A stretch of 51,614 nt of DNA from NCBI GenBank assembly GCA_035550055.1, contig DASZRO010000024.1, positions 1 through 51,614 of the forward strand, in the 5' to 3' direction. The notes beneath the pieces are model-generated. The model was not told the DNA's origin and ran no database searches. It saw nothing but the letters and a program-made list of their open reading frames with translations. This DNA comes from Mycobacteriales bacterium (GTDB taxonomy: Bacteria; Actinomycetota; Actinomycetes; JAFAQI01). Position numbers and translations under genes: made by a program. The first letter of the stretch is position 1. Each line of letters opens with the position of its first letter. Of the stretch, positions 34,033-40,914 are shown piece by piece.

Positions 34033-35598
34033 ATGACCGGCAGGTTTCGCGGCACCGCCGTCGCGGTGTTCGCCCTCGTGCTCTCGGCCACGGCTGTCGG
34101 CACCGCCGCCGCGGACGGCACCGACTTCACGCTGTCGCCCACGTCGGGGCCGGCCGGCACGACGGTCACCATTGACGCCTCCGGGACGACGGCGTTCCCC
34201 GCGCCCACCGACCCCGCTCCCGTGACCCCGAGCGTCGCCTTCAACGGCGTCGCGGCGACCACGGTGACGCTGGTCAGCGCGACCGAGCTGACCGCCGTCG
34301 TACCCGCGACCGCAACGAGCGGGACGGTGACGGCGACGGTCGGTATGACGACCTACACCGGGCCCACCTTCACCGTGACGACCGTCCCCACGCCGCAGCC
34401 GGCGACCTGGGCGGTCGCGATCTCGCGGCAGAGCGTCACGTACGGCGCCAGCACGGTCGTGACGGGCACCCTCACCGATGCGGCCGGCGCCGTCGGCGGC
34501 GTGACGGCCGAGCTGCAACAGTCGACCGGCGCGGGGGCCTGGCTGCCGGCTGCCGGGACGCAGGCAGCCACCACCAACTCCGCCGGCGCGGTGCGGTGGA
34601 CGGTGACGCCGCGACAGAACGAGCGCTACCGCGTCTCATCCCCCGCGACCAGCAACTACCTCGCGGCGGTGAGCCCGCCCGCGTCGGTGGAGATCGTCCC
34701 GGTGCTCACGCTGCACCCGGTCGAGGTCGCCGCCGCCGGGGTGACCTTTCACCTGACCGGCACCGTCCGACCGGCGATCGCGGGCACCCTTCAGTTGCAG
34801 CGACGCAACGGGACGACCTGGCGGCCGGTGGCACAGGCGGGTGCGGGCAGCGGACGGTTCTCCTTCGCCGTCACCCCGACGGTGGTCGGGCCGGTGCGCT
34901 ACCGGGTCGTCGAGGCGGCCAATGCCGAGCACGGTGCCGCCAGCAGCCCAGCGATCCGGATCGAGGTCACGCACGCGCTGCTGCGGTACGGGTCGTCCGG
35001 CGCCGAGGTGCGGGCGCTGCAACGCCGCCTGCGCGAGCTCCACTACGACGTCGGGCCGCCGTCGAGCACGTACGGCTGGGACATGGTCCACGCCGTCACC
35101 GCGTTCGAGAAGGTCCAGGGGATCGCCCGCGACGGGGTCGCCGGCACGCAGACGTGGCGGCGGCTCGACAACCCGAAGGTGCCGCATCTCGAGCACCCGT
35201 ACCCCAACGCGCCGGTCGCGGTCGAGGTCAACCTGACCAAGCAGATCCTGATGATCGCGAAGTACGGCAAGGTGTGGCGCATCCTCGACACGTCCACGGC
35301 CGGCGGCTACACCTACACCGACTCCGCTGGCCTGACCGCGACCGCCATCACACCGACCGGGCACTTCACGATCCGCTACAAGATCGACCACCTCGTGACG
35401 GACACCCTCGGCACGTTGTGGCGTCCGTCGTACTTCAACTACTCAGGCGACGCGATCCACGGCGAAGGCAACACCAACAGCGGCAGCAACGTCCCGCCGT
35501 ACGCCGCGAGCCACGGTTGCGTACGGATCACCGATCTCGCGGTGGACCGCTACTACAACGTGCTCGCGGTCGGTACGCCGGTCTGGATCTACCACTAG
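34033..35598 (+). CDS. Secreted L,D-transpeptidase (YkuD) with IPT/Ig-like and peptidoglycan-binding domains
   Basis: A 521-residue exported cell-wall enzyme that forms or edits 3-3 peptidoglycan cross-links. The signal peptide ends near VGTAAADG. Residues ~33-118 are an IPT/TIG-like domain (LSPTSGPAGTTVTIDASG), and ~125-312 hold two Ig-like beta domains (VTYGASTVVTGTLTDAAGAV). Residues ~318-378 are a PG_binding_1 helical domain (GSSGAEVRALQRRLRELHYD, then FEKVQGIARDGVAGTQTW). The C-terminal YkuD domain has IHGEGN (His476) and AASHGCVRITD with nucleophile Cys496. Its stop overlaps the stop of the cysteine-rich MauA-like gene on the opposite strand. Confidence 0.92.
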   Translation: MTGRFRGTAVAVFALVLSATAVGTAAADGTDFTLSPTSGPAGTTVTIDASGTTAFPAPTDPAPVTPSVAFNGVAATTVTLVSATELTAVVPATATSGTVTATVGMTTYTGPTFTVTTVPTPQPATWAVAISRQSVTYGASTVVTGTLTDAAGAVGGVTAELQQSTGAGAWLPAAGTQAATTNSAGAVRWTVTPRQNERYRVSSPATSNYLAAVSPPASVEIVPVLTLHPVEVAAAGVTFHLTGTVRPAIAGTLQLQRRNGTTWRPVAQAGAGSGRFSFAVTPTVVGPVRYRVVEAANAEHGAASSPAIRIEVTHALLRYGSSGAEVRALQRRLRELHYDVGPPSSTYGWDMVHAVTAFEKVQGIARDGVAGTQTWRRLDNPKVPHLEHPYPNAPVAVEVNLTKQILMIAKYGKVWRILDTSTAGGYTYTDSAGLTATAITPTGHFTIRYKIDHLVTDTLGTLWRPSYFNYSGDAIHGEGNTNSGSNVPPYAASHGCVRITDLAVDRYYNVLAVGTPVWIYH

Positions 35599-37046
35599 TC
35601 CGATCCCGGCGCGCCGGGATCCAGGGTGGTGGTCACCTCGCCGGTGTCGTCGTCGACAGTGACCGTGCCGTACTCGAAGGTGCACTGGTCGAGCTCCCCT
35701 TCGGTGGTGACGTCGGAGACCGGGAAACCGAGGACGCCGGCCGCGCCGCCTTGCTCGACCCACGCGGCGTAGATCGCACCCCAGACGCCGTACGCCGCGC
35801 CGTTCGCTTCGGCGACGACGCCGTTGGTGAAGTTGACCAGCGATCTCTCGTTGCCGACCGCGTCGGTCGCGTCGGTCGCGTCGCTCGTCGGGTAGCCGAG
35901 CGGGCCGTCCACCGCACCGAGGTCGGCGTACTTCGCGGCGATCGCGCCGGGCAGGACGTAGGGATGTCCGCCGCCCTGGAGATAGATCGCGCCGTTGTCG
36001 AAGGTGGCGAACTCACCGCTTCCGTCCGAGGTCGGGGAGACAGTGGCGGTGGGAAATCCCAACGGCCCGCGTGGGCCGCCGGCGCTTTGGTAGCGGGCGT
36101 CGACGGCACCCCACAACGCGAAGGCAGGCGCGCCGTGCCGTTGATAGATGTCGCCGCGCTCGAACGCCGCCGTCGAGCCGAGGACGAGGTCGCCGCCGGC
36201 ACCGAGCAACTGGTGGCTGTCGGTGATCGGCAGCCGCAACGGAGACGCGCTCTCGGTCAGCGCCAGGTAGCAGCGCAGCACCTCGCCGGTCAGGTAGTGC
36301 GGCCCGGTTTCGGTGGAGGAGTACATCCGTCCGTTGACGTAACGCTGCATTCGTCCGAACGCGCCGGTGACCTCCGGGCCGACGGTCGCCCCGAGTATCG
36401 ACCCTTGTGAGCCGAGCTTCGTGTAGCGCTCGTTGATGGCCGTCCAGCCGGGAAGGCAGGGCGCGGAGTGGCTGACGGTCGCCTGGCTGGTCGCCGCCGC
36501 AGTCGAGCACTCGGCCCACTCCCACGGCGGGGTGCACGAGATGGCGCGGCACATCACCGGCCCGGAACACTCCCGGTGGCGGTTGCACTGTCCGTAGCGG
36601 AACACCGTGTGGCAGACCCGGCGACGGTCGCAACCGCCATCAGCACAGTGCGGTCGGCAGCTCCAGCACCCCTCTTCGCAGAAGTGCCCTCCGCCGCAGC
36701 CGCAGTCGACGCACTCGGCTTGACAGTCGACGTAGTAGCGCGCGCTGCCGCCGCACAGACTCGCACCTTCGGCTTTCCACCATCCGCCCGCGAAGCTGCC
36801 GGGCGGGCACTGGTTGATCCCGCCGTTGATCGAGCAGCACATCGCGGTCCAACCGGAGTAGCAGCTCGCCCCTTCGCCACACACCCAGGCGTACGCGCTG
36901 CCGGGCCGGACGATGAAGTCCCAGCCCACGGCGCTGACTGCGGTCCCCACCAACGTCGTCCGCGCGAGGAAGCCACGTCGGCTCACCCGTCGCTCGATCG
37001 CTCGAGACGCCCAGGTGACGAGTCGCTCCGTCGCGGTCGCGGTCAT
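35595..37046 (-). CDS. Tat-exported cysteine-rich protein, MauA-like domain plus LGFP repeats
   Basis: A 483-residue protein. The N-terminus carries a twin-arginine signal (RRVSRRGFLART, hydrophobic VGTAVSAVGWDF). Residues 56-197 contain 22 cysteines, including CCSINGGINQCPPGSFAGGW, VDCQAECVDCGCGGGHFC and RECSGPVMCRAISCTPPW. This resembles the methylamine dehydrogenase light chain: CPPG followed closely by Trp89/Trp90, a Tyr-rich strand, then a Cys cluster. The second cofactor Trp of MauA appears to be replaced near RxEC, so a tryptophan tryptophylquinone is doubtful. From ~205 to 450 there are LGFP-type repeats (GPLGFPTA, GPLGYPTS, GVLGFPVS) usually linked to cell-wall association. It is the last gene of the MauE/MauD-like operon. 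Confidence 0.75.
   Translation of the reverse strand: MTATATERLVTWASRAIERRVSRRGFLARTTLVGTAVSAVGWDFIVRPGSAYAWVCGEGASCYSGWTAMCCSINGGINQCPPGSFAGGWWKAEGASLCGGSARYYVDCQAECVDCGCGGGHFCEEGCWSCRPHCADGGCDRRRVCHTVFRYGQCNRHRECSGPVMCRAISCTPPWEWAECSTAAATSQATVSHSAPCLPGWTAINERYTKLGSQGSILGATVGPEVTGAFGRMQRYVNGRMYSSTETGPHYLTGEVLRCYLALTESASPLRLPITDSHQLLGAGGDLVLGSTAAFERGDIYQRHGAPAFALWGAVDARYQSAGGPRGPLGFPTATVSPTSDGSGEFATFDNGAIYLQGGGHPYVLPGAIAAKYADLGAVDGPLGYPTSDATDATDAVGNERSLVNFTNGVVAEANGAAYGVWGAIYAAWVEQGGAAGVLGFPVSDVTTEGELDQCTFEYGTVTVDDDTGEVTTTLDPGAPGSD
35860..35886. repeat. Tandem 9-mer GCGTCGGTC, about three copies
   Basis: Two exact copies and one single-base variant encode an Asp-Ala-Thr repeat (SDATDATDAVG) between two LGFP repeats of the cysteine-rich exported protein. 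It is a small in-frame expansion in a linker. Confidence 0.7.
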
Positions 37047-37050
37047 CGGC

Positions 37051-37494
37051 TCAGGCCACCCGGACCGAAGGCAGCACCGAGTCGACGAGTTGGAGCAGCT
37101 GGCGACGGCGCCCGTTGCTGCCCAGCACCAGATAGAGGCAGAACGCCCGGCGCTTCAGATGGAAGAAGTACTGCGCCCCGCACTGCCCCGGAAGCGGCCG
37201 TTGCAGCTGGCGCGGGGAGAAGTCACTCGGCGCAGGGCGCGGGAAGCCGTCGCGCCGGAACAGCGGGGTGTGCGCCGCTTCCTCGTCGTGCTCGACGAGA
37301 GCGACGAAGACGTTGCGGTGGCCCATCGCCTCGACCGCCCCGGCACCGTAGTCGCCGCGCCCACCAGGTAGTGAGAAGTTCGCGGCGTGCAGGACGGGGA
37401 AGGTCTGCTCCCCGGCCCCGGCGGGACGTCTGAAGATCTGGACGTCCCATCCGCTCGGCGCGTCGACGGCAAGGCCGTGTGCGCTGATCCGCAT
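37051..37494 (-). CDS. Unknown 147-aa protein in the MauE/MauD-like operon
   Basis: ATG start MRISAHGLAVDAPSGWDVQI, overlapping the thioredoxin-like stop by 1 nt (TGATG) and ending 4 nt before the cysteine-rich gene. There is no signal peptide, so it is probably cytoplasmic. The pattern of beta strands (VLHAANFSLPGGRGDYGAGA, NVFVALVEHDEEAAHT) and the terminal LLQLVDSVLPSVRV resembles Mog1/PsbP-like small proteins by eye, but this is weak. Two Cys (PGQCGAQYFFHL, RAFCLYLVLG) could matter in a redox operon. A chaperone-like or Tat proofreading role for the cysteine-rich product is a possibility suggested only by position. Confidence 0.65.
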   Translation of the reverse strand: MRISAHGLAVDAPSGWDVQIFRRPAGAGEQTFPVLHAANFSLPGGRGDYGAGAVEAMGHRNVFVALVEHDEEAAHTPLFRRDGFPRPAPSDFSPRQLQRPLPGQCGAQYFFHLKRRAFCLYLVLGSNGRRRQLLQLVDSVLPSVRVA

Positions 37495-38186
37495 CAGTCG
37501 CGGCGCCGCGTCGTCGCCGGAAAGAGGCTCGGGTGGCCGGGTCCGATGCCCGCCGCCGCGAGCTCGGCGTCGATGCGCTCGGCGTTGTCCCGGTCCGCAG
37601 CGGCGCTTCTCGTCGCCCCGGGTCCGAGCGCCTGCTGCATCAGGTCGAACACCTGAGGCCAGGTGGCCGCGGTGCCCTGACCGACGATCCGGCCCGTCTG
37701 ACCCTCGACGTAGACGAAATGGGGAGACCCGGGCACTTCGTAGTCACGCCAAGCTGCATCGGAGCGGACGACCGCGAGATCCGAGCCCGCCAGCTGCGCG
37801 AGTCGGTCGGTGCTGTCCTCTTCGACCACCACGACGATCAGCCTCGCGCCGCCCGGCACCACGACCACGGCTCGGAACGCCTCCCAGAACGGGGCGCAGG
37901 TGTGACAGGTGGTCGACAGGAACGCAAGCAACGTGTCGCGGTCGACCCCGACCACCCCGAAGGAGAGCGCGTCACCGGCAACCGACAGCCCGGCAACGTC
38001 GCGACCGAGGGCGTCCGAGCCGATCTGCAGCAGCCGCGGCTGCGCTGCGGCGGGCGGCGCCGAATCGGTGTCGAGGCCGGCCTCGTGCAGGATGCGCAGG
38101 ATGCTGGCGTGAGAGCGCAGCAGCCCGACCACGAGTACGACGACGAGCAACAGCACGACGCTTTCGCCGATCAACGCTGCCAGCAC
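37494..38186 (-). CDS. Membrane-anchored thioredoxin-like protein (MauD-like)
   Basis: A 230-residue protein from a GTG start 2 nt after the MauE-like stop, with AGGTG upstream. One N-terminal membrane helix (LIGESVVLLLVVVLVVGLL) is followed by an extracytoplasmic thioredoxin-fold domain. The active site is LLAFLSTTCHTCAPFWEAF (Cys94-His-Thr-Cys97) and the cis-Pro loop is VPGSPHFVYV (about Pro155). In methylamine-utilising bacteria MauD and MauE are needed to form the disulfides of the MauA light chain. The same pairing here, upstream of a MauA-like gene, supports a dedicated disulfide role. The longer in-frame region upstream belongs to the overlapping MauE-like gene and is excluded. Confidence 0.85.
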   Translation of the reverse strand: MLAALIGESVVLLLVVVLVVGLLRSHASILRILHEAGLDTDSAPPAAAQPRLLQIGSDALGRDVAGLSVAGDALSFGVVGVDRDTLLAFLSTTCHTCAPFWEAFRAVVVVPGGARLIVVVVEEDSTDRLAQLAGSDLAVVRSDAAWRDYEVPGSPHFVYVEGQTGRIVGQGTAATWPQVFDLMQQALGPGATRSAAADRDNAERIDAELAAAGIGPGHPSLFPATTRRRD

Positions 38187-38188
38187 TG

Positions 38189-38710
38189 CTAACGCACCTG
38201 TCGAGGGCGCAACGCGGGAAGCAACGTGATCACTGCCCAAGCGCACCAGGCGGTGAGCATCGCGGATGCCAGCATGACGACCTGAGGCGCTCCGGGGTGC
38301 CCTTGCAGCAGGTCGCCGATGCCGGTGACCGGCCGAGCGATCGCGGCGCCGGCGGCTGCCGCCGCGATCGCACTCACGAGGACCAGGTGGCTCTCCGACG
38401 GCGGCGTCTGGTCGTTCGCCGTACAGCCACACGACGAGACCCCGCGACGAAGCAGCACCGTGAGCACCACGGCGAACCCGGCGTACATCAGGGCCAACGC
38501 GCCGTCGAGCCAACGACCACCCGCGACCACCGCAGCGCCACCCACCGCACACTCGCCGAGGCCTACCGCGACTGCGGCGGCGGGCGCTCGGCGGCTGATT
38601 CCCAGGCCGTGCAAGGCGATGACCGCTCCGCTCGGTCGGGCGACCTTCGAGACGCCGCTCGCCACGAGCAGGAGCGCGGCCCCGAGAATCGGAGCCGCTA
38701 GCGGTGACAC
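38189..38710 (-). CDS. MauE/DoxX-type redox membrane protein
   Basis: A 173-residue four-helix membrane protein, first gene of the operon, GTG start. Hydrophobic segments are LGAALLLVASGVSKVARP, then AAAVAVGLGECAVGGAAVVA, ALALMYAGFAVVLTVLL and the C-terminal pair. The cysteine motif SSCGC (Cys94, Cys96), just after a membrane segment, is the feature typical of MauE-like proteins. Cys54 and Cys156 lie in membrane helices. MauE family members supply or relay oxidising power to the partner thioredoxin. A 63-nt AT-richer region separates it from the divergent SPCG membrane-protein gene and should hold both promoters. Confidence 0.82.
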   Translation of the reverse strand: MSPLAAPILGAALLLVASGVSKVARPSGAVIALHGLGISRRAPAAAVAVGLGECAVGGAAVVAGGRWLDGALALMYAGFAVVLTVLLRRGVSSCGCTANDQTPPSESHLVLVSAIAAAAAGAAIARPVTGIGDLLQGHPGAPQVVMLASAMLTAWCAWAVITLLPALRPRQVR

Positions 38711-38773
38711 AACCGGAACCTTAGACGGCAGTGGGATATAAACCGGTCCAACTCGGCCGTACAGGGGGGGCAG

Positions 38774-39637
38774 ATGTCAGCCGTCGTCGGGATCGCTGTT
38801 GCGACGACCGTCACCGCCGCGGTCCGTGGGACGTGGTCGCCGTGCGGCGCCTCGATGTTGTCGACACTCACGCCGTTCGGGGAGCGCGCCCGCGGGCACC
38901 GCTACTGGTCGACCGCGGCCTGGTTCGTCGTCGGCGGCATCCTCGGCGGCACTTGCCTCGGCCTCGCCGGCGTGACACTGAGTCTCCTCGCCCGGTGGGC
39001 AGAGATGGGTACGACGACGGTGATGACGGTCTGCGCCATCTCCGCCGTCGTCACGCTGTCCTCGGATCTGCGACTCGTCCGGCTGCGCCTGCCGTCCCAC
39101 CCCCGCCAGGTCGACGAGAACTGGGTCAACCGGTTCCGGCCGTGGGTGTACGCGACCGGTTTCGGCTGGCAGATCGGGACCGGCTTCGCGACCTACGTCA
39201 TGTCCGCGATCACCTACCTGATGGTGGTCGCCGCCGCCCTCACGGCCCGACCGCTCATCGCGTGGGGGTTGGGCGTCGGGTTCGGCGCGATTCGGGGGCT
39301 GAGCCTGCTCACCGGATCGCGTCAGCACAACCCGGCGGCGGCACGGCGCTTCCACGCCCGGTTCGAAGCGTTGCGCCCGGTGTCGTGGCGGGTGGCGGTC
39401 GGCGTACAAGTCGCGGTCTTCGGGATCGCGTCGGCAACCGTCGGCAGCCCCGCGGTGCGTGCCGCGCTCGTCGCTGTCGGCGCGTTGACCGCGGCTCGCT
39501 GGCTACAGCGCAGCAGCACTTCGCTCGCCGCCAGTTGGCGCAGCCAACGCCGAGCCCGCGGTTACCCGAAGTCGACCATCCGCCAGGGGTCGACCAGCAT
39601 GCCCGTGACGTCGGCGAGGAACTCGCTGCCGAGCTGA
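38774..39637 (+). CDS. Multi-pass membrane protein with an SPCG motif, possible redox carrier
   Basis: A 287-residue protein, ATG with GGGGGG just upstream. The first membrane segment carries RGTWSPCGASMLSTLTPFG (Cys24). The second segment contains Cys61 (GGILGGTCLGLAGVTLSLL), and about six segments are present overall. The placement of a Pro-Cys in TM1 and a second Cys in TM2 recalls CcdA/DsbD-type electron carriers, though overall similarity is not established. It is divergent from the MauE-like gene. The last 25 codons run antisense into the E2 gene (76-nt 3' overlap); that tail (YPKSTIRQGSTSMPVTSARN) looks unconstrained. Confidence 0.6.
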   Translation: MSAVVGIAVATTVTAAVRGTWSPCGASMLSTLTPFGERARGHRYWSTAAWFVVGGILGGTCLGLAGVTLSLLARWAEMGTTTVMTVCAISAVVTLSSDLRLVRLRLPSHPRQVDENWVNRFRPWVYATGFGWQIGTGFATYVMSAITYLMVVAAALTARPLIAWGLGVGFGAIRGLSLLTGSRQHNPAAARRFHARFEALRPVSWRVAVGVQVAVFGIASATVGSPAVRAALVAVGALTAARWLQRSSTSLAASWRSQRRARGYPKSTIRQGSTSMPVTSARNSLPS

Positions 39638-40914
39638 CCGTCGACGATCCGGTGGTCGAAGGAGAGCGCCAGCGTCGTCACCTTGCGGATCGCCAGCTGC
39701 CCCTCGTGCACCCACGGCTGGTCGCGTACCGCGCCGAAGCACAGGATCGCGGACTCGCCGGGATTGAGGATCGGCGTCCCGCTGTCCACTCCGAAGACGC
39801 CGACGTTGGTGATCGTGATGGTGCCGCGTTGCATGTCCGCGGGAGCGGTCTTGCCCTCACGGGCAGTCGCCACGAGGCCGTCGAGCGCCGCGGCGAGCTG
39901 CGGCAGTGAGAGCGCCCCGGCGTCCTTGATGTTCGGGACGATCAAGCCTCGTGGCGTCGCTGCCGCGATCCCGAGGTTGACGTAGTCCTTGACCACGATC
40001 TCCTGCGCGGCCTCGTCCCAGCTGCTGTTGATCATCGGGTGCCGTCCGATCGCGATGATCAGCGCGCGGGCGACCAGCAGCAGCGGCGACACCTTGGTGC
40101 CGGTGAACTGCGGATGGTCGCGCAGCCGGCGTGCCAGCTCCATCGTCTCGCTCACGTCGACGGTGAGCCACTCCGTCACGTGCGGTGCGGTGAAGGCGCT
40201 CGACACCATTGCGGCGGCGGTCGCCTTGCGCACGCCCTTGATCGGGATCCGCTGCTCGCGGGTGGCCGGGTCGAAGTCAGGCCGCGGCGCCAGCGCGGTC
40301 GCACCGCGCGTCGGTGCCGGGGCACCCGCTGCGGCCTGTACGTCGTCGCGGGTGATCGAGCCGTTCGGGCCGCTGCCACCGATGCCGCGCAGGTCGACGC
40401 CGAGGTCACGCGCCAGCTTGCGTACCGGCGGCTTGGCCAGCACGTGGACCTGTGCCAGGCCGGCCGCGACCGGCGCCGGAGCCGGCGCGGCCACGGCTGG
40501 GACAGCGCCGGCCGCTGGGGCCGGCTTGCGCGGGCGACGCGCCAGATTGCCGGACTTCGGTCCGCTGCCGACCAGCACCTGGATCTTTTCTTCGCCGCCC
40601 GCCTTCGGCGCGTTCGGCACCAAGTCGCCGCCCTGGATGACGGGAGCCGCTTGGGTGGCCGCGGCGTCCCCGCCGCCGACCTCGAAGCTGATCAGCGGCA
40701 GCCCCACGTCGACGGTGTCGCCCTGCGGGTGATGCAGCCTCGTGACGACCCCGGCGTACGGCGAGGGGATCTCGACCGCCGCCTTCGCGGTCTCCACTTC
40801 GACGATCGGCTGGTTCAGCGTCACGGTGTCGCCTTCGGCGACCAGCCAGTTGAGGATCTCCGCCTCGGTCAGCCCCTCACCGAGGTCGGGCAGCAGGAAC
40901 GTCTCGAGTGCCAT
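39562..40914 (-). CDS. bkdC: 2-oxo acid dehydrogenase E2 (dihydrolipoyl acyltransferase)
   Basis: A 450-residue acyltransferase. The N-terminal lipoyl domain has VEVETAKAAVEIPSPYAG with lipoylated Lys44. An Ala/Pro linker leads to the E3-binding domain PPVRKLARDLGVDLRGIGGS. The C-terminal catalytic domain ends with LALSFDHRIVDGQLGSEFL, containing the catalytic His and Asp. It transfers the acyl group from E1 to CoA. The arrangement of E1 alpha, E1 beta and E2 with 1-nt overlaps matches actinobacterial branched-chain keto-acid dehydrogenase operons (Rv2497c-2495c type), so bkd is preferred over pdh. No E3 gene is present here. Confidence 0.9.
   Translation of the reverse strand: MALETFLLPDLGEGLTEAEILNWLVAEGDTVTLNQPIVEVETAKAAVEIPSPYAGVVTRLHHPQGDTVDVGLPLISFEVGGGDAAATQAAPVIQGGDLVPNAPKAGGEEKIQVLVGSGPKSGNLARRPRKPAPAAGAVPAVAAPAPAPVAAGLAQVHVLAKPPVRKLARDLGVDLRGIGGSGPNGSITRDDVQAAAGAPAPTRGATALAPRPDFDPATREQRIPIKGVRKATAAAMVSSAFTAPHVTEWLTVDVSETMELARRLRDHPQFTGTKVSPLLLVARALIIAIGRHPMINSSWDEAAQEIVVKDYVNLGIAAATPRGLIVPNIKDAGALSLPQLAAALDGLVATAREGKTAPADMQRGTITITNVGVFGVDSGTPILNPGESAILCFGAVRDQPWVHEGQLAIRKVTTLALSFDHRIVDGQLGSEFLADVTGMLVDPWRMVDFG

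Follow-up and report, generated by a model that had tools for sequence, protein, structure and literature searches.

A probable Mau-type maturation cassette with an exported cysteine-rich protein in actinobacteria, and a probable selenocysteine form of its MauF

MauF, MauE and MauD are known as accessory proteins of methylamine dehydrogenase. What could they serve in an actinobacterial gene cluster that has neither MauB nor MauG? The question is raised by a locus in contig DASZRO010000024.1 of a Mycobacteriales bacterium (assembly GCA_035550055.1), of which the whole stretch of 51,614 nucleotides was analysed and is called the window here. Genes for a MauE-like protein, a MauD-like protein, a protein of 147 amino acids (p147) and a cysteine-rich protein with a twin-arginine translocation (Tat) motif lie on its minus strand, divergent from a plus-strand gene for a MauF-like protein. 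We consider it probable that these genes are an oxidative-folding cassette of the Mau type with a Tat-exported cysteine-rich client, rather than an amine dehydrogenase, and that MauF would contain selenocysteine (Sec) in most lineages. The identities of the genes, their linkage, the exchange of TGA and Cys codons in mauF, a covarying hairpin and the co-occurrence with SelA, SelB and tRNA-Sec could be established at the level of sequence.

The four minus-strand genes are separated by 2, −1 and 4 nucleotides (nt); an earlier, preliminary description of the window had given these genes and their coordinates correctly, and the gaps were the same when measured again. The MauE-like protein (38189-38710, 173 amino acids) has four transmembrane segments and the motif SSCGC, and matches PF07291 with E=1e-10 and 42.4 bits (cut-off 27). 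Its SCGC is kept among 65 relatives in linked loci. The MauD-like protein (37494-38186, 230 amino acids) consists, as expected of MauD, of an N-terminal transmembrane segment and a thioredoxin-like domain with a CxxC motif, here CHTC, and aligns in BLASTP with MauD of Paracoccus over most of its length (E=7e-4, 22% identity); CxTC is kept among 75 linked relatives. A Pfam scan gave no match for the MauD or the p147 of the window. Methylamine metabolism cannot do without MauE and MauD, and a role in forming disulfides has been proposed for MauE (van der Palen 1997, as reported in PMC7794033).

Sequence comparison identifies the divergent gene (38774-39637, plus strand, 287 amino acids) as a MauF homologue belonging to the cluster, as it does in nearly all relatives. 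A profile of 45 relatives of the window protein aligned with a MauF profile over 186 columns in hhalign (probability 99.3%, E=9e-21), the window protein alone matched MauF of Paracoccus in BLASTP (E=1e-7), and 25 of the 45 relatives matched the DsbD/CcdA-superfamily model DsbD_2 (PF13386) with a best E of 4e-11. Close to its start the window protein carries TWSPCGASMLSTLTPFGERARG, and annotated MauF proteins from Paracoccus, Methylobacterium and Indioceanicola carry STWSPCGYSSLSLLRP at the corresponding place. The preliminary description had pointed to cysteines in the first (SPCG) and second transmembrane segments of this protein; the SPCG position, Cys or Sec, is conserved and is the sole invariant Cys/Sec of the MauF-like proteins, but the cysteine of the second segment is not conserved.

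The arrangement of these genes is not due to chance, because the same families recur jointly in about 90 loci of Actinomycetota. A search with nine of the cysteine-rich domains retrieved 80 loci from named genomes, almost all belonging to Actinomycetota, and iterated profiles located MauE in 65 loci, MauD in 75, MauF in 71, p147 in 85 and the cysteine-rich domain in 89 of about 90, many of the genes missing from linked loci being cut off by contig ends. MauE, MauD, MauF, p147 and the Tat-exported cysteine-rich domain are a conserved five-gene set across actinobacteria. Their common order is mauE-mauD-mauF-p147-cys, and genomes of the Egibacter/Euzebya type have mauE-cys-mauD-mauF-p147. The survey of MauE/MauD pairs with the 147-residue gene that the preliminary description had called for thus found their linkage conserved, with tails on the exported protein that are not always of the LGFP kind.

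In the class, 394 genomes were covered. Nine carry the cysteine-rich domain together with a full MauF, one (G020) carries MauF without the domain, and the domain without MauF occurs in none if a weak partial match in G378 (E 6e-4) is left aside (Fisher 2e-17, with genome relatedness ignored). G020 has after p147 an LGFP protein lacking the cysteine-rich domain. A larger profile, run on 396 genomes of the phylum, detected the domain in 30. No relative was found in plasmid and phage collections, and clustering of the neighbourhoods gave no further recurrently linked gene, the largest cluster being an antisense artefact. In the genomes of L081, L085, L086, L076, L082 and L079 a Cys-form MauF lies elsewhere, away from the cluster. 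Two metagenome-assembled genomes (MAGs) labelled Melainabacteria and Acidobacteriota (L017 and L092) contain the actinobacterial cluster and are probably misbinned.

The putative client of the cassette (35595-37046, minus strand, 483 amino acids) has the twin-arginine motif SRRGFLA at residues 22-28 (36963-36983), and an RRGFL-type motif is also present in relatives. Its cysteine-rich domain spans residues 56-200 (36447-36881), has the motifs CPPG, WWK and FRYGQC, and contains the 22 cysteines that the preliminary description had counted, out of 24 in the whole protein. The 85 members of the domain family have in common C-CPPG-WWK-C-RY-DC and FRYG[QN]C, and the strictly invariant residues other than Cys are W40, W41, R54, Y55, F100, R101 and Y102.

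The preliminary description had called this protein MauA-like and proposed a search against PF02975. In that search none of nine members of the domain gave a match, even with E values of up to 10 allowed, and a single PF02975 match in the window's own genome is a chance one within an acyl-CoA dehydrogenase region. Sequence searches of the PDB, Pfam and NCBIfam with the domain returned nothing useful. An hhalign score against MauA (E=0.018) was reached by 3 of 60 shuffled MauA alignments, also when the Cys columns were held fixed, and was therefore not used as evidence. An AlphaFold2 (AF2) model of the domain (pLDDT 86.7) had no match in Foldseek; VIA structure comparison aligned it with 39 chains, 11 of them with Z≥2, and each of the ten matches listed at this level was a light chain of MauA or AauA (Z 2.0-2.3, over 71-83 residues). 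Judged from the model a MauA light-chain fold is likely; the likeness claimed earlier is echoed by the listed VIA matches but finds no backing in PF02975, hhalign or Foldseek. The register of the final C-x11-C is the same in MauA (Cys109/Cys121) and in the aligned domain (Cys105/Cys117), and therefore Gln or Asn stands at the place of MauA Trp108. The conserved pair W40-W41 follows CPPG near the place of MauA Trp57. Of the two tryptophans that define tryptophan tryptophylquinone (TTQ), Trp57 and Trp108, the second is thus Gln, rarely Asn, and the conservation of FRYG[QN]C in the 85-member family bears out the earlier remark that this tryptophan had been replaced.

In the window protein the domain is followed by four LGFP repeats (35637-36434; PF08310, E=1.1e-31; PDB Protein PS1, E=2e-22), which suggest a wall or surface tail. 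The tails vary by lineage and may be LGFP repeats, a PLL-type lectin (PDB match E=9e-84), ricin-B, B-lectin or repeats not named in Pfam, and in at least five loci (L031, L055, L058, L067 and L068) there is none. L064, L082, L065, L066, L019, L069, L045 and L073 carry unrelated tails, among them PLL lectin, B-lectin, ricin-B, GYWLVASDGG repeats and GWAYDPD repeats, which looks like the exchange of a display module. The term wall-associated, used for the protein in the preliminary description, fits the LGFP forms, but LGFP is only one among interchangeable tails. At L087 (5646-7535) MauE is fused in a single open frame to the Tat/Cys domain, which is followed by a repeat tail.

The Cys codon of the window mauF led to the Sec form remaining unsuspected in the preliminary description. 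This codon, the TGC of TWSPCG at 38843-38845 (plus strand), is aligned with an in-frame TGA in most relatives. There are 56 loci with TGA at this position (TWSP-U-GESML) and none with TAA or TAG, the coding sequence is conserved on both sides of it (AxRxTWSP upstream), and the distant members L121, L122, L123 and L125 have it as well. Two hairpins lie downstream of the TGA, of which the second is CCCCGCTC-GGT-GAGCGGGG, whose apical GG lies 33 nt downstream of the TGA. The bacterial rules for a selenocysteine insertion sequence (SECIS) ask for a distance of 16-37 nt and a G within the first two bases of the loop, and with the GG at 33 nt the second hairpin therefore fits them. Among 53 distinct Sec-form sequences all 14 pairs of this hairpin can form in 34 and at least 12 in 49, while 13 Cys-form genes reach at most 11 of the 14. 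Double changes that preserve pairing occur in 24 cells against 9 in shuffles, and none of 500 shuffles was as high. RNAalifold by itself did not pick the second hairpin, which was supported by counting the named pairs. In the first hairpin the Ser codon is AGC in 53 of 53 sequences, whereas AGC makes up 20% of the Ser codons elsewhere in the same genes.

The distribution of the Sec machinery agrees with this. Matches to tRNA-Sec split into two groups, strong ones of at least 59.9 bits and others of at most 55.2 bits, and strong matches occur in 23 of the 24 genomes whose MauF has the TGA, against 3 of 18 with the Cys form (Fisher p=1e-7, relatedness ignored). SelA was found in 9 of 10 TGA-form and 2 of 18 Cys-form genomes, and the distribution of SelB agrees with both. 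The window genome (G000) has no selA, no selB and tRNA-Sec matches at background only (47 bits), and its own MauF is not a selenoprotein. It shares Cys-form MauF and the lack of SelA with G010, while G006, from the same family, has TGA-form MauF and SelA; such cases would be natural Sec/Cys pairs of one protein inside a single bacterial family. In the MauF tree, read without L129 and L131, two added sequences that came from an incorrect stretch of the frame, Cys forms stand in at least two places amid Sec forms, and at least two Sec/Cys changes are therefore required.

MauF in most relatives thus appears, from these sequence features, to be a selenium-containing protein not listed before. It is absent, as MauF or SPUG, from the 119 prokaryotic selenoprotein families in Table 1 of PMC13188914 (2026), and NCBIfam has no model for a selenoprotein of MauF type. 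We found no paper on MauF as a selenoprotein, with Haft and Tolstoy 2025 covered through that table. By name, the family in the table that comes closest is TsoB, a rhodanese/DsbD fusion. With known prokaryotic selenoproteins the MauF genes share a TGA at the redox Cys and a hairpin like the bacterial SECIS, the apical GG at 33 nt included. They would add a probable actinobacterial selenoprotein family, whose genes automatic annotation would truncate at the TGA. The Nakamurella genomes of L057 and L061 have complete Sec machinery together with Cys-form MauF, and therefore another selenoprotein probably maintains it there. A second short DsbD/MauF-like gene adjoins tRNA-Sec and selB in the genome of L028 (G396, contig 1, 3486973-3489958), and the genome of L040 (G400) has two tRNA-Sec genes, on contigs 7 and 12, with a SelB match beside each.

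The remaining member, p147 (37051-37494, minus strand), has linked relatives and no signal peptide. Its AF2 model (pLDDT 97.5) has a PsbP/Mog1-like fold and in VIA resembles LpqN, MTC28, PsbP, Mog1 and Tsi3 with Z 4.6-6.6. Because the effector chaperones EagT6 and SciW are in the same list of structural matches, it is a fair guess that p147 is a cytoplasmic chaperone of the client precursor. Comparison by eye of the p147 and MauJ alignments showed no common motifs, and an identity of the two was rejected.

Taken together these features suggest a Mau-type cassette whose service to a dehydrogenase has been lost. Its client would be a Tat-exported protein with a conserved domain of about 150 residues and about 20 cysteines, probably of MauA light-chain fold, which in most relatives bears a tail for binding to wall or glycan that can be swapped. 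MauF (DsbD/CcdA), MauE (DoxX-like) and MauD (membrane thioredoxin) may form a transmembrane thiol-disulfide relay that makes and sorts the disulfides of the client, and p147 would probably act in the cytoplasm. The redox residue of MauF would in most lineages be a Sec inserted at UGA through the SECIS hairpin, and Cys in the window genome; Sec may speed the exchange. The tail would display the client on the surface, where it could serve in the end as a disulfide-rich redox or binding protein.

Several alternatives have to be weighed against such a cassette. That the TGA is not read as Sec, translation starting downstream of it or the gene being a pseudogene, is very improbable: automatic gene callers would stop there, and in the MAG L062 the TGA form occurs with no Sec machinery detected, but conserved coding on both sides, Cys at this place in homologues, the covarying hairpin and the co-occurrence of SelA, SelB and tRNA-Sec speak for Sec. 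We also think it improbable that the cluster encodes a true quinoprotein dehydrogenase, in which the cysteine-rich protein would be catalytic with a Trp-derived cofactor and the tail or another protein would replace MauB. The maturation genes are the same, W40-W41 is invariant near the Trp57 place, and propeller-type tails (PLL lectin) in some members recall the propeller of MauB. However, the residue before the Cys that matches MauA Cys109 is Gln or Asn family-wide, tails are variable or absent, and no other recurrent neighbour offers itself. MauB was found in none of 20 genomes and MauG in none of 16, with positive controls that worked, as the preliminary description had supposed for the window. 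Its idea of a Mau maturation module reused for an exported cysteine-rich protein is upheld by these absences, the conserved linkage and the presence of MauF. We regard it as similarly doubtful that the domain bears a protein-derived redox cofactor of a new type, formed from the invariant Trp-Trp with a nearby Tyr and matured by the Sec-MauF relay without MauG; were it so, this would be a surface-bound actinobacterial quinoprotein unlike the enzymes with TTQ or cysteine tryptophylquinone (CTQ).

A more serious contender, which we hold possible though not favoured, is a structural or adhesive surface protein, a disulfide-hardened scaffold with no redox chemistry of its own whose folding alone is secured by the Mau genes. 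The tails, being wall- or glycan-binding modules (LGFP, B_lectin, RicinB_lectin and PLL lectin), agree with this, but the seven invariant residues other than Cys suggest a more specific role and the client is tail-less in at least five loci. The folding cassette with a Sec-MauF relay also has points that weigh against it. DsbD/CcdA proteins carry electrons across the membrane and use two cysteines; the MauF-like proteins keep one invariant Cys/Sec, and the chemistry of a relay is therefore not obvious. Kinship of the client to MauA is below significance by sequence (PF02975 and hhalign), no MauF was seen in the genomes of L091 and L073, L062 lacks detectable Sec machinery, and the co-occurrence statistics for MauF, the cysteine-rich domain and the Sec machinery take no account of genome kinship.

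The nearest known systems are the mau and aau operons (mauRFBEDA-amicyanin-mauJG in Paracoccus denitrificans, NZ_CP035092.1). Both these and the actinobacterial cluster have MauE-MauD in this order before an exported cysteine-rich protein, MauF, and the CPPG-W and C-x11-C spacing of the exported protein. In contrast to them, the actinobacterial cluster has no MauB, MauG, amicyanin or cytochrome, its client has about 20 cysteines instead of 12 and Gln/Asn for the second TTQ tryptophan, and it adds the PsbP/Mog1-fold gene, swapped tails and, in most relatives, Sec-MauF. Actinobacterial MauF resembles the DsbD/CcdA carriers (PF13386, PF02683) in scoring as DsbD_2 in 25 of 45 members, but differs in its single invariant Cys/Sec (SP[U/C]G), its dedicated operon and its one client. 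MauE and MauD also occur in candidate clusters for ribosomally synthesized and post-translationally modified peptides (RiPPs) of Streptomyces, for which a use outside methylamine metabolism has been suggested (PMC7794033). The likeness lies in that use; those clusters have a peptide precursor, whereas here there are a large Tat-exported cysteine-rich client, MauF and p147. MauF-E-D would thus exist also as a more general maturation cassette, and with cultured genera at hand, Janibacter, Phycicoccus and Pedococcus among them, the roles of the three proteins can be put to the test.

On either side of the cluster in the window lie two further genes. One, for an L,D-transpeptidase (YkuD and PG_binding_1; 34033-35598, plus strand), is tail-to-tail with the Cys-LGFP gene and overlaps its 3' end by 4 nt. 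The other, for the E2 acyltransferase of a 2-oxo acid dehydrogenase (39562-40914, minus strand), is convergent with mauF and shares 76 nt with its 3' end.
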